From positions 1 to 50,715 of the forward strand of contig JAILDR010000068.1 of NCBI GenBank assembly GCA_024689285.1: a stretch of 50,715 bases of DNA, given 5' to 3'. The position numbers and the translations under genes are program-made. Source of the DNA: Bacteroidales bacterium. Its GTDB lineage: Bacteria > Bacteroidota > Bacteroidia > Bacteroidales > F082. The notes beneath the pieces were generated by a model. It saw only the letters and a program-made list of their open reading frames with translations, made no database searches and was not told where the DNA came from. Below are positions 3,089 through 48,411 of this stretch, piece by piece (position 1 is the stretch's first letter; each line of letters begins with the position of its first letter).

Positions 3089-3159
3089 ATGTCCTTTCAA
3101 AACGCAGAAACACAAAGCAAACAATAACTTATCAAATTAACTAATCAAAACATCAAACC

Positions 3160-4098
3160 ATGAAAAAGCTTTATTTAATCACCTTTTTGCTGATGGCCTT
3201 TGCGATGGCGGCCTCGGCGCAAGACAAGAAAATGAAAATCGCGGTGATGGACTTCAAGGCAGGTGTGGGCGTTAATGCTGACGAGGTGGAAGGCCTCAGC
3301 GACATGCTTATCAACACGCTTTTCGAGACAAAGAAGTTTAGCATCGTTGAACGCTCGCAATTGTATGAAGTACTTAAAGAACAAAATCTTCAGGGAGAAC
3401 TCACGGTGCAACAGTGTGTTAAAGTGGGCCGTATCTTGGGTGTGGAATCCGTTTTGATAGGCACTGTGAATTTCCTTGCTGAGCAGAAGACCCTTGGTGG
3501 CTCAACGATAGGTGAATACAATGTTGATATTCGCGCTGTTGATGTCGAATCAGGCGAAGTGGTGACCACAGCAGGAGGCACAAAAACTTCCGGTTCAACC
3601 TATCGCGCGATGATGGAAAAGATTGCACGACAGTTGGCTGAAAACCTGACGGGAGATGCTATCGAAATCCAACCGGTGGGAGGCTTGATTACCAAAGGAA
3701 GAGATTTTTACTACCTTGATGGAAAACGACTCACGAGCGAACAGTACATGGAACTGATTCAGAATTGCCCCGAGGCTTGGGCGAGTTATGAGAGAGGGCG
3801 CAGACAAATCAAAACGGGAACGATTCTTTTGATATCTATAGCTGGAACTGCTTTAGTCGGTACAGCAATAGGTGCAATTATAGGGGGGGCCGATGGAGGA
3901 GTAGGTGGATTAATGATAGGTGGGATATTTGTTGGTGTCCCTCTAGCTTTAACAGCCGTCCCGTTTTACATTGCAGGCAGCAGCAAAAAGAAAAACGCCT
4001 ACAAGGTTTATAACGAGTATTGTTCCAAGCCTACAGCCTCGCTCAGCTTCGGCCCCGCCACCACGGGAATGGGTGTGGGAATTTATCTGAACTTCTAA
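3160..4098 (+). CDS. CsgG-like exported protein with C-terminal membrane segments
   Basis: 312 residues. A Sec signal peptide (MKKLYLITFLLMAFAMAASA) is followed by KIAVMDFKAGVGV, then SDMLINTLFETKKFSIVERS and GRILGVESVLIGTV, the core pattern of CsgG/curli-assembly-like domains, which form outer-membrane or periplasmic oligomers. Residues about 160-210 (GRDFYYLDGKRLT, ASYERGRRQ) are less conserved. Two Gly-rich hydrophobic segments follow (from TGTILLISIAGTALV and GGLMIGGIFVGVPLAL), unusual for CsgG itself. The end (SLSFGPATTGMGVGIYLNF, final Phe) resembles an outer-membrane beta-strand. It is transcribed alone, between the candidate RNA and a hairpin terminator. The true role is unknown; a secretion-pore role is only inferred from the fold. 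Confidence 0.7.
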   Translation: MKKLYLITFLLMAFAMAASAQDKKMKIAVMDFKAGVGVNADEVEGLSDMLINTLFETKKFSIVERSQLYEVLKEQNLQGELTVQQCVKVGRILGVESVLIGTVNFLAEQKTLGGSTIGEYNVDIRAVDVESGEVVTTAGGTKTSGSTYRAMMEKIARQLAENLTGDAIEIQPVGGLITKGRDFYYLDGKRLTSEQYMELIQNCPEAWASYERGRRQIKTGTILLISIAGTALVGTAIGAIIGGADGGVGGLMIGGIFVGVPLALTAVPFYIAGSSKKKNAYKVYNEYCSKPTASLSFGPATTGMGVGIYLNF

Positions 4099-33557: not shown

Positions 33558-33815
33558 CACGCATTTTCCCATCACGCAAGCCTTTTTGTTGAAAAATTCT
33601 CTTTATATGGTTTAGCGAGACATGAGACCGCAAGAGTTGCATTCCTGCTTTAGCTGCAAGGTGCTTGATTTCTGTAGCAGATGCATAGGCCGATTTGACC
33701 CGTAGCACCCAATAGGTGCCGACTGCATAGGCCGAAAATAACTGCAACAACTGCAACAACTGCAACAAAAACAAAAGAATAACAGAAAAAACTTGCCAAA
33801 TCCGGTTATTTTTCT

Positions 33816-33823
33816 TACCTTTG
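33816..33823 (+). promoter_or_regulatory. Minus-7 box TACCTTTG inside dispersed element copy 1
   Basis: TACCTTTG, exactly 22 nt before the ATG at 33846, the same spacing as in copy 2. Confidence 0.5.
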
Positions 33824-33845
33824 CAACTTCAAACGCAAAGCCCGA

Positions 33846-33917
33846 ATGAGACAGGAGAATCCTTGTAACTATCTGTTCCTCTATGTGTTACGCTGTGTAG
33901 ATAGACTTTCTTGCTGA
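33846..33917 (+). CDS. Candidate 23-residue peptide of dispersed element copy 1
   Basis: It reads MRQENPCNYLFLYVLRCVDR then LSC. It aligns codon for codon with the frame at 47563-47471: both have ATG, five variable codons, CNYL, eight variable hydrophobic-rich codons, then DRL and S or T. This could be a membrane-active or leader peptide, or the match may reflect RNA conservation. No ribosome-binding site is obvious. Confidence 0.35.
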   Translation: MRQENPCNYLFLYVLRCVDRLSC

Positions 33918-33965
33918 TTTTCCCCTATAACACGCTCATTCCCAATCCATTAAAGTATAAAAAAC

Positions 33966-34062
33966 AATAGCAACGCTATACCAACGCTATACTAAAACTA
34001 TAGTAATCCTATAGCCGCCAGCTGGTAGCTATGAGGTAACTTTGAGGTAACTCCGTGTTACC
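33966..34062. repeat. 11-bp periodic array, copy 1
   Basis: Units are AATAGCAACGC, TATACCAACGC, TATACTAAAAC, TATAGTAATCC, a 13-bp unit, TGGTAGCTATG, AGGTAACTTTG, AGGTAACTCCG. The period is near one helical turn of DNA. The first half is TATA-type and the second AGGTAACT-type. Confidence 0.8.
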
Positions 34063-34175
34063 CCCCTGATTCCTCTCTGTGGTGATTTGGAATAGAAGAT
34101 TGTCACCGCGCTTGTAAAAGGCCTGTCGTGTGGCACTTCTTGTTCCCGAAAAAAACTGTAACAACTTTAGCAACT

Positions 34176-35537
34176 TCAACGAGCCGAAGTCATCTGACGA
34201 TATGTCACCAGGTTGATCCTGTATTCAGCGCGGCTGTCGGTCAACTCGTCGCGGCTCTGCTTGAGAAGGGTTTGGGCTTCGAGCAGGTCTGAAACAGTAA
34301 CCAATCCCGCTTCGTAGTAATCCTTCGTGATTATCAGATTGGCTTCGGCATCGTGCATAGCGGTTTGTGCCATATTGATGCGCAGCCAGCTCTGCTCCAG
34401 GTTGAACCAGGCTTGGTTGGTCTGTAGCTGCATTTTCTCGGTGAGGTCGTTGCGGGTGTTTTCGGCCTTTTGTGTGTCAAGGTCGTGTTTCTTCAGCTTG
34501 ATGGAGGTCTTGTGCCAGTCGGTGAGAGGCACCTGCAGCATGGCGAAGACCATCGCGTTTGGCTTGGTGTGGTCGAAAATGGTGTGATAGCTCACGCTGC
34601 CACCGACCATTAAGGAAGGCAGGGCTTCGCCGAGGGTCATTTTCTTTTTTATGTCTTCGGCTTTTAGGGAAAGGTCTAAAAGATGGCTCTCATTGCGATG
34701 TGCTACAGCATTTTCCGCGACTTGGAAATAGGCCGAAGGCTCCGTTTCAAGGCCGAGGGTGTCGGATAGCATCATCGTTTGCCAGTCTGTGCCGATGTAT
34801 TGCGCCAAGGCCATTTTCAATAAGGTGATGCCATCATTCAGTTTCTTGCGGTTGAGCTGGCTCTCGTTTTGCTTCACGCGGAGTTTGTATTGGTCGGTGG
34901 GCATGGCTAAACCAGCTTCGACGGCACCAGCCAAGTCCTTTTCCAAAGTGTCCAATAGTTGGTCGAGCTGATTCAAGGTGGCGTTTTTCTCTTGCAGGGC
35001 GACGATTTGCCAATAGAGGGTTTCCGTTTGTAGGCGTACTTCATCCTCCTTCATCATGGATTGGTATTCGGCGGCTTCGATGCCTAACTTGGCGAGTTTG
35101 TTGCCGTTGCGGATGCGACCACCGGCATAAATCGGTTCGGTTGCCACCGCATTGAGTATCACACCGTTTTGTACAAAAGAATATTCCTTGTCCAAGCCCA
35201 TGTTGGCACCATATTCGGCATAAAGCGTATAGAGGATTTGTCGCAGTTGGGCGTTGTCGATATCGTCAATGCCGAAAGATAGTAAGGGATTGAGCGCATC
35301 AAAGGCCAAGGCCTGTGCCGAAATCGTTGGGAGATACAAGGTTTGGGCTTCTTTCTTCATTGCCCTTGCTTTGTCGATTTCCAACTGGCTGTTTTTCAGT
35401 TCGATATTGTTCTCCAAAGCCATATCGATGCAGTTCTGCACGGAGAGGCGAAGTGTGTCAGTCCAACGGATTGCAAATCCGTCGGGACAAAGGGCCAATA
35501 ACAACAGGCACAATACGATGATTTGCTTCTTTTTCAT
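34176..35537 (-). CDS. TolC-family outer-membrane efflux protein
   Basis: 453 residues. A hydrophobic start (IIVLCLLLLALCPDGFAI) is followed by the duplicated helical-barrel pattern: LRLSVQNCIDMALENNIELK at the front, a repeat in the second half, and the C-terminal ITKDYYEAGLVTVSDLLEAQ with RAEYRINLVTYRQMTSA. It forms the trimeric channel that carries substrates from the inner-membrane pump across the outer membrane. Its start overlaps the RND gene stop by 4 nt, so it is the last gene of the efflux operon. The stop lies inside dispersed element copy 1. Confidence 0.9.
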   Translation of the reverse strand: MKKKQIIVLCLLLLALCPDGFAIRWTDTLRLSVQNCIDMALENNIELKNSQLEIDKARAMKKEAQTLYLPTISAQALAFDALNPLLSFGIDDIDNAQLRQILYTLYAEYGANMGLDKEYSFVQNGVILNAVATEPIYAGGRIRNGNKLAKLGIEAAEYQSMMKEDEVRLQTETLYWQIVALQEKNATLNQLDQLLDTLEKDLAGAVEAGLAMPTDQYKLRVKQNESQLNRKKLNDGITLLKMALAQYIGTDWQTMMLSDTLGLETEPSAYFQVAENAVAHRNESHLLDLSLKAEDIKKKMTLGEALPSLMVGGSVSYHTIFDHTKPNAMVFAMLQVPLTDWHKTSIKLKKHDLDTQKAENTRNDLTEKMQLQTNQAWFNLEQSWLRINMAQTAMHDAEANLIITKDYYEAGLVTVSDLLEAQTLLKQSRDELTDSRAEYRINLVTYRQMTSAR

Positions 35538-47234: not shown

Positions 47235-47354
47235 GTTTACCTCGACACACTCTCTGCTCTTTGTGTTTTTAACTGTAGCAACTGTAGCAAAAAACGACAA
47301 CCAGTTCAGTATCGGGCTTCACCTAAACCATAGGAGGGGATACGGTGTTCTCTT

Positions 47355-47443
47355 GGAGTTAACTCGGAGTTACCTCGGAGTTACCTCGGAGTTACCTAGG
47401 AGTTGGTATAGAGTTAGTATAGCGTTGATATAGAGTTGCAATA
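47355..47443. repeat. 11-bp periodic array, copy 2
   Basis: Units are GGAGTTAACTC, GGAGTTACCTC twice, GGAGTTACCTA, a 12-bp GGAGTTGGTATA, GAGTTAGTATA, GCGTTGATATA and GAGTTGCAATA. These are the reverse complements of the copy 1 unit types, in the matching order. Confidence 0.85.
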
Positions 47444-47470
47444 GCTTTGGTGATTTTAAATTATTGGTAA

Positions 47471-47563
47471 TCAGTTTATTGTGTAACAAATCCAATCGGT
47501 AAGTCTATCTGAATCATTTATTATTATGAAAACCAAATAGTTACAATGGATTAAACAATCCAT
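47471..47563 (-). CDS. Candidate 30-residue peptide of dispersed element copy 2
   Basis: It reads MDCLIHCNYLVFIIINDSDR, then LTDWICYTIN. The first 21 codons align without gaps to the frame at 33846, sharing CNYL and DRL. The middle is strongly hydrophobic. Its ATG is 22 nt after the promoter box, the same as in copy 1. Confidence 0.35.
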   Translation of the reverse strand: MDCLIHCNYLVFIIINDSDRLTDWICYTIN

Positions 47564-47585
47564 TCGGGATTTGTACAAGCGTTTG

Positions 47586-47593
47586 CAAAAATA
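47586..47593 (-). promoter_or_regulatory. Minus-7 box TATTTTTG inside dispersed element copy 2
   Basis: TATTTTTG on the minus strand, 22 nt before the ATG at 47563. Confidence 0.5.
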
Positions 47594-47735
47594 TGAAAAA
47601 AAGACGATTTTGGCAAGTTTTTTGGGGAAAAATTATTGTTTTTTGCAATTGTTGCAGTTGTTGCAGTAAGAATCACAGAGAGAGGGAAGTCGGAGCAGTT
47701 TTTCTATGATGTGGGTGACTTTTGAGAAAAATGTT

Positions 47736-47743
47736 TATCTTTG
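47736..47743 (+). promoter_or_regulatory. Minus-7 box TATCTTTG for mntA-hepT
   Basis: TATCTTTG, only 4 nt before the ATG at 47748, so the mRNA should be leaderless or nearly so. Confidence 0.6.
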
Positions 47744-47747
47744 CAAT

Positions 47748-48044
47748 ATGAAGACAAAAACAGAATACATTAAATTGATTGAAAATCAAGAGGATGAATT
47801 AAGAAGAGACTTTGGAGTTCGCTCGCTTCGTCTATTTGGCTCGGTGTCTCGCGATGAACAGGTAGAGGGAAGTGATGTAGATGTCTGTGTGGAAATGGAG
47901 CCTCAAGCCTATTTGATGGTGAGATTGAAACGCTTCCTTGAACGTCTTTTGGGTTGTTCTGTTGATGTCATTCGAATGCATAAACACATGAATCCGTATC
48001 TTTTACAAGAAATCAATCGCGATGGAATTTACGTCATCAAATAA
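47748..48044 (+). CDS. mntA: MntA-type nucleotidyltransferase antitoxin
   Basis: 98 residues from the ATG at 47748; the longer upstream frame crosses the promoter. The minimal nucleotidyltransferase motif is complete: GSVSRDEQVEGSDVDV (31-46) with D43/D45 and a third acid D74 in SVDVIRM. In HepT/MntA systems MntA attaches AMP units to a tyrosine of the HEPN toxin, silencing it. The gene overlaps hepT by 23 nt in another frame, so the two are coupled. The region from here to about 50190 is AT-rich compared with the neighbouring core genes. Confidence 0.88.
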   Translation: MKTKTEYIKLIENQEDELRRDFGVRSLRLFGSVSRDEQVEGSDVDVCVEMEPQAYLMVRLKRFLERLLGCSVDVIRMHKHMNPYLLQEINRDGIYVIK

Positions 48045-48411
48045 AAAGCAGCGCGTACTTGGCATTTTTGAACAAATTCAGACTGCAATTGGTCAGTTGC
48101 AGGAATGGAATGTTGATGTGACACAAGCAGATGATTATTATCTTTCACCCAATGGTATGCAGAAACTTGCCGCAAGTTGCATGCTGATTGAGGCCATTGG
48201 TGAGGGCATTCATCAAATTGATGATATAACGGAAGGAAAATTGTTTACTGAACGTCCAGAAATACCTTGGGAAGATGTGATTGGCATTAGAAATCATATT
48301 GCGCATGGTTATTTTGACATTGATAGTGAAGTCGTTTATGTCGTTATCAAACAAGATCTTGATCCTTTGCTCAAAGCCGTTGAGTATTTTCTTGATACAT
48401 TGCGTTCATAA
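48022..48411 (+). CDS. hepT: HepT-type HEPN ribonuclease toxin (DUF86)
   Basis: 129 residues, mostly helical. The catalytic HEPN motif RNHIAHGY (R90, N91, H95, Y97) is intact; the Tyr is the residue that MntA modifies. The longer linker QKLAASCMLIEAIGEGIHQI and IPWEDVIGI are typical of DUF86. Active HepT cuts RNA and stops growth. It starts inside mntA and ends 12 nt before the first of three tandem membrane-protein genes. Confidence 0.88.
   Translation: MEFTSSNKKQRVLGIFEQIQTAIGQLQEWNVDVTQADDYYLSPNGMQKLAASCMLIEAIGEGIHQIDDITEGKLFTERPEIPWEDVIGIRNHIAHGYFDIDSEVVYVVIKQDLDPLLKAVEYFLDTLRS

Follow-up and report, generated by a model that had tools for sequence, protein, structure and literature searches.

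Two copies of a probable MITE-like interspersed element with a promoter and an 11-nt tandem array in a Bacteroidales genome fragment

The DNA analysed here (the window, 50,715 nt at its full length) contains two intergenic regions, 33739-34182 on the plus strand and 47671-47264 on the minus strand, that the initial annotation proposed to be homologous. Full-length alignment bore this out: the words it had named occur in the same order and at nearly equal spacing in both regions, hereafter copies A and B, which are mutually inverted and intergenic and each carry a real 11-bp array. The similarity is above chance, as exactly two instances of the rare word pair TTGTAACTAT...GATAGACTT are present in the window, compared with a mean of 0.00 in 100 shuffles. 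Two features went undescribed at that stage, a promoter at the start of the element and inverted ends (Table 1). A gene pair encoding a nucleotidyltransferase and a HepT-like protein (47706-48411), of toxin-antitoxin type by Pfam, directly adjoins copy B.

Table 1. Features of copies A and B, in coordinates of the window.
Feature	Position	Strand	Remarks
Copy A, left-end 9-bp repeats (AACTGCAAC x3)	33740..33768	+	Upstream end score 17, cut 18
Copy A, promoter	33793..33823	+	TTG (33793-33795), 20 nt, TAccTTTG (33816-33823)
Copy A, hairpin leader	33841..33941	+	Subfamily alignment; stems 33844-33850/33935-33941, 33853-33861/33916-33924, 33869-33875/33898-33904
Copy A, 11-nt array, block 1	33965..34019	+	Five CTATA-type units, the first reading CAATA
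Copy A, 11-nt array, GGTAACT-type units and beginning of third block	34020..34085	+	
Copy B, left end, CTCTCTGTGATTCT and 9-bp repeats	47643..47684	-	Score 24, background maximum 13
Copy B, promoter	47586..47616	-	TTG (47616-47614), 20 nt, TATTTTTG (47593-47586)
Copy B, hairpin leader	47468..47568	-	Central stem 47540-47534 with 47511-47505
Copy B, 11-nt array, block 1	47401..47444	-	Four CTATA-type units, the first reading CTATT
Copy B, 11-nt array, GGTAACT-type and degenerate units	47335..47400	-	
Copy B, right end (left end inverted)	47250..47290	+	AACTGTAGC repeats on the plus strand; score 30, background maximum 13

Copies A and B are both complete members of a single dispersed element family. 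When further copies were sought by profile, 22 more were found in the sister genome G001, the 2.7-Mb MAG of uncultured Bacteroidales bacterium SRR10912539_bin.2, so that the absence of other copies, named at the outset as grounds for rejecting the homology, does not apply. The 24 dispersed copies share a conserved body of about 300 bp comprising a promoter, a hairpin-capable leader and the 11-nt array. The complete order is left end, promoter, hairpin-capable leader of about 100 nt, linker ending in approximately CATTAAAG, array and, in some copies, an inverted end. A blastn search of G001 with one copy gave 23 matches, consisting of the 22 copies and one 24-nt piece of the promoter. The R1 profile recovered the same 22 copies at E <= 1e-44, although these match by construction, the profile having been made from them and the two window copies; its next match had E = 5e-5 and was followed by weaker partial matches. 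In a scan of the genome_contigs collection (84,980 species), an exact core pattern matched at nine places, each of them in G001.

Among 99 genomes of the genus, with the best 19 candidates scored per genome, full copies were found in G001 only, and none was found with the R1 profile in the 98 others. In nine relatives searched with 150 candidates each, nothing outside G001 scored better than E = 0.0017. A triple CTATA pattern was present in one of 173 family genomes, and a triple 9-bp-repeat pattern in one of 99 genus genomes. Weak partial R1 matches in seven other genus genomes were rejected as copies, as on reading they proved promoter-like or due to chance and had no array. Two loci in two other genus genomes (L035 and L039) have only a TTGTAA-type leader in common with the family; at both, a hairpin-like TTGTAA...TTACA leader comes after a promoter and precedes genes whose products, judged by eye, look secreted. 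An outer-membrane efflux protein encoded in the window is 82% identical to its G001 counterpart and 69-74% identical to the best match in seven other genomes (two of the ten genomes searched had no match), and on this one protein we take the window genome and G001 to be sisters. Speaking against this, the window's pyruvate oxidoreductase subunit shares 99% identity with those of three other genomes; G001 has no match there, and the gene is not comparable. In the genomes searched, the family is thus confined to this pair of sister species. Origin from a phage or plasmid was rejected, as copy A has no match in phages or plasmids and the core pattern has none in viral_contigs. Two array patterns do match 30 and 5 viral contigs, in surroundings that read as unrelated. 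These include GGTAACT repeats at 11-bp spacing (L059-L088), which, as a guess, could be replication iterons.

None of the copies is contained in a long reading frame; the nominal span is overlapped by some short frames and, at L026 and L028, by the edges of long ones. Neighbouring genes and their orientations vary among copies. The site of copy A is empty in G001, where about 128 nt separate the same two genes (700 nt in the window); of eight relatives with the efflux gene, G001 alone keeps both flanks. The site of copy B is empty in G042 (about 29 versus 487 nt) and G088 (about 125 versus 540 nt), the only two among 12 relatives with the next gene located at the same position. L031, the one G001 copy of 22 with both flanks in the compared stretches of relatives, corresponds to an empty site in G094 (about 250 versus 630 nt). 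All three sites with readable flanks are therefore empty in relatives. The flanks are too diverged for a target duplication to be read or for precise insertion to be visible, and loss in the relatives could thus account for the empty sites as well.

The left end spans about 43 bp and consists of CTCTCTGTGATTTT followed by 9-bp repeats of the AACTGTAGC type. The CAACTGCAA 9-nt repeats of the initial annotation are present, and are better described as part of this end, which recurs inverted at the far side of copy B. By score (cut 18; maximum of 13 in 200 background windows), the left end lies upstream of 11 of the 24 copies, never reversed; copy A just misses the cut (Table 1). At least one upstream 9-mer is found in 13 of 24 copies, and on the left side of L012 and L017 the 9-bp repeats are all that is retained. 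The inverted right end, present in 6 of 24 copies, starts about 330-660 nt after the promoter TTG. Copy A instead has a weak forward copy of the end downstream, the sole forward case. In total, four copies have both ends (including copy B), seven the left only, two the right only and 11 neither above the cut. A close pair of copies (L010/L011) shares a 578-nt block reaching from about 20 nt before the promoter to just past the right end.

Within 800 kb of G001, the end, CTATA-pair, GGTAACT-pair and hairpin patterns match nowhere but at family copies. Across the whole genome, six of 20 exact end matches (C15, C37, C49, C58 twice and C90) are at no family copy, and the ends are therefore not exclusive to the family. 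C58 holds the only convergent end pair lacking a family copy among the G001 matches listed, with ends about 1.8 kb apart. There (L290:167-1988), a 43-bp inverted repeat (93%) surrounds a gene for a 438-aa P-loop-like protein and several 11-nt arrays. A role as transposase for this protein was considered and is unsupported, with no match in Pfam, NCBIfam or PHROG; its structural model is of low confidence (mean pLDDT 43.4). The protein has at least 4,881 relatives in the protein database, and within the genus its matches at E <= 1e-100 are in G001 only, in two places. One relative, of 799 aa (L296), contains in-frame tandem arrays of the TTACAGTG type and of 7 bp (about 3115-3245 on the minus strand of the locus), preceding the region it has in common with the 438-aa protein. 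No transposase with these ends was found, nor any convincing target-site duplication in the four two-ended copies and C58.

The TAnnTTTG box named in the initial annotation lies 20 nt behind a TTG, and is now read as the -7 part of a promoter. From its consensus, we take TTG-20 nt-TAnnTTTG to be a promoter of the Bacteroidota type. The TTG-20 nt-TA arrangement is found in 21 of 24 copies (it reads TTT in L027 and L030 and is lost in L019) and TAnnTTTG in 23 (TTTA in L013); the promoter is thus degraded in four copies, and those of L014 and L025 were read by eye. Scanning of 33600-34400 gave no terminator-like site and no sigma-70-type promoter, in a scan that does not cover Bacteroidota promoters.

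The leader could form a central stem, CTATCTG/CAGATAG, and an outer stem that differs between two subfamilies. In the subfamily alignments (12 and 9 copies, with copy B, L029 and L031 left out of both), 93% and 89% of cells retain pairing, and 22 of the 23 pairs of the proposed fold are formed in copy A. Covariation in the proposed stems is not above that of shuffles, 139 and 355 of 500 of which reach the observed scores. Folded on its own, copy A keeps both outer stems in the minimum-energy structure and lacks the central one, which is the only stem that RNAalifold retains. Folding energies are mildly below those of shuffles for both leader (-1.4) and array RNA (mean z -0.84). A fold of the leader RNA is plausible on these alignments, not proven. 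A short ORF at CCCGAATG (ATG...CNYL) was rejected as a general explanation of the leader, as its third codon is TAG in L015, L017, L018 and L020 and L016 lacks the ATG. Within subfamily 2, a 12-codon frame of similar codons occurs in seven of nine copies and a longer frame in two, and a short peptide may be encoded there.

We consider it probable, at roughly 0.6, that copies A and B represent a MITE-like interspersed element that carries a small noncoding transcription unit ending in a minisatellite. Many dispersed noncoding copies, as expected of a MITE, are present (22 in G001 and two in the window). The closest parallel is BrickBuilt of Porphyromonas gingivalis, described as a MITE of 19 copies with a leader-array-tail structure, internal promoters and gain and loss of units (PMC4596501). 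Compared by description, both are dispersed, intergenic and nearly species-restricted in Bacteroidales, and both combine a leader, a tandem array and a promoter; both terminal repeats are present in 4 of 19 BrickBuilt copies and 4 of 24 copies here. They differ in unit length (23 nt in BrickBuilt, 11 nt here) and in their ends, which in BrickBuilt are 12-nt, IS5-like and of the GAGACC type, whereas the approximately 43-bp ends described here carry 9-bp repeats and read CTCTCTGTG..., a difference judged by eye from the published table. A parent IS family has been inferred for BrickBuilt; for the present family there is none. By description, MITE464/PgRS of P. gingivalis is a further MITE with an internal tandem repeat and about 10-20 copies, and differs in its 41-nt units and IS5-like ends (PMC4596501). 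The statement in the initial annotation that no named repeat family explains the combination holds for Rfam 15, which has no match above gathering score in the window, and for literature searches of open-licence PMC papers, which gave no title or abstract describing this 11-nt element; it needs amending in that the family is the same kind of object as BrickBuilt, though not the same family.

The strongest competing explanation, which we regard as a tentative second choice, is that these are multicopy genes for small regulatory RNAs, kept for their function, to which the end repeats and dispersal are secondary. The precedent is FopS of Bacteroides thetaiotaomicron, 14 paralogous sRNAs behind sigma-ABfr promoters, a source that also supports the promoter type given above (PMC11697453). 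Likenesses, again by description, are the multicopy noncoding nature, the Bacteroidota promoters and the mostly intergenic position (9 of 14 for FopS). Conservation of the promoter among copies down to about 70% identity fits such genes, as does the retained pairing in both leader subfamilies. Terminal repeats, presence or absence at comparable sites, the lack of a full copy in the 98 other genus genomes and the non-significant covariation all speak against them. The accessible part of the FopS account mentions no tandem array or terminal repeats, unlike the family described here, and reports conservation across Bacteroidaceae with demonstrated expression and targets, while the present family is known from sequence (PMC11697453).

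The array begins with CTATANNAANN units and continues with GGTAACTNNGA units, and many copies add a third block (GTGGGCA / AGAAAACA type). An array of about eight units had been reported. The 11-bp period is real: lag-11 identity over the first 99 nt is 0.659 in copy A and 0.784 in copy B, compared with maxima of 0.455 and 0.432 among 5,000 letter shuffles. The count is too low for many copies, in which by eye the third block prolongs the array without a change of register, reaching about 14 units in some (L010 and L015). At lag 11 the first 110 nt match at 0.66 and nt 89-165 at 0.42, with other tested lags at 0.18-0.26 and 0.23-0.30, lag 22 excepted (0.58 and 0.35). Block order is identical across the 24 copies, and, counted in the CTATA register, the first GGTAACT is at phase 4 mod 11 in all 24. 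The switch between unit types at the same relative point, as first claimed, therefore applies to the register and not to the unit count: by the chosen anchor, three, four or five units precede the first GGTAACT in 5, 11 and 8 copies, respectively (five in copy A, four in copy B). In a unit that played no part in the anchoring, CTATA is near-invariant (one G among 24, at the fifth base) and positions 7 and 11 are nearly free; across such units, CTATA carries 1.75-2.0 bits and other positions down to 0.25. The unit that follows the first GGTAACT has no variation at positions 1, 2 and 6. As the 24 copies are mutually related, shared register and conserved cores do not count as independent events. 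CTATAG is partly palindromic, position 6 being G in 63 and C in 32 of 98 units; these were picked by pattern and are biased at the selected positions, of which position 6 is not one. A coding role on the element strand was rejected because the TAA in GGTAAC recurs in each frame, 11 not being a multiple of three.

Other short arrays bear on how the period should be read. The window has no lag-11 arrays outside copies A and B. In 59.8 kb of G001 intergenic DNA outside family copies (from 800 kb), 12 arrays were found at lag 11 and 17 at lag 22, two sets that may overlap, together with 12 at lag 8, seven each at lags 9 and 14 and four at lag 7; none was found at lags 10, 12 or 13. The plain match fraction in this DNA is highest at lag 9 and second highest at lag 11. 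One of the 12 lag-11 arrays is AT-rich low complexity. The units of the other 11-bp arrays in G001 (L168-L187 and L248-L267) differ from those of the family and mostly from each other, with two kinds recurring. A second dispersed 11-nt array passes from TTTACTCAAAC-type into GGTAACT-like units (L158-L161, L163 and L164); its exact sites number eight in G001, with none found in 98 other genomes, and the six copies read have no conserved promoter. Among relatives, lag-7 arrays number 12 in G074 and 22 in G094, each with a single lag-11 array, and no lag-11 array was found in G143 or in the small samples from G039 and G016.

The presence of 11-bp arrays of other sequence in G001 and of 7-bp arrays in relatives, along with the gain and loss of units described for BrickBuilt (PMC4596501), would suit a neutral minisatellite that became trapped in a mobile element and has no function. 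We think this rather unlikely, though not by much less than the sRNA-gene explanation, given that variation is limited to certain unit positions and that all 24 copies have the same block order. A nucleoprotein array at the DNA level, with proteins bound at 11-bp units along one helix face, is less likely again: the strict register in 24 of 24 copies, the conserved CTATA and GGTAACT cores and the match to the supercoiled pitch favour it, but the array always lies downstream of a promoter, CTATAG is only partly palindromic and two unit types would require two specificities. The initial annotation had suggested a row of bound proteins or bent DNA. Since the helical pitch of negatively supercoiled bacterial DNA is commonly put at 11 bp (PMC4132750), the former is conceivable; a bending role for such periodicity is disputed (PMC7537859). 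Bending through A-tracts is unlikely, as any run of four A or T occurs in the first 99 array nt of only two of 24 copies, one run in each.

Returning to the MITE-like element, we infer transcription, mobility and a function of the array as follows. A transposase supplied in trans would recognise the ends with their 9-bp repeats, and copies would spread. The promoter of each copy would then give rise to an RNA in which a folded 5' domain precedes the row of 11-nt units; as the element starts with the promoter, the array should also be transcribed. Slippage could add or remove single units. The array might be kept because its evenly spaced CUAUA..AA and GGUAACU sites serve an RNA-binding protein or a partner RNA, which we consider likelier users than a DNA-binding protein, and the copies could jointly form a sponge or scaffold of many sites. 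The array role that we favour, with low confidence, is thus a set of evenly spaced binding sites on a transcribed RNA. A more speculative and improbable extension is a mobile small-RNA gene family whose tail holds two or three kinds of binding site in strict 11-nt register, with a lineage-specific protein or process reading or making the period, not the sequence. As 11-bp arrays of other sequences lie between genes of this lineage, period rather than sequence would be what matters.

Through this family, Porphyromonas is joined by another Bacteroidales lineage that has a MITE-like element combining a promoter with a minisatellite. With 24 copies, an exact register and a conserved promoter and leader, the family offers a clean case for distinguishing rows of RNA- or DNA-binding sites from passenger arrays. 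The contrast in period, with 11 bp prominent in G001 and 7 bp in the two best-sampled relatives, raises the question of what sets the period of intergenic arrays.
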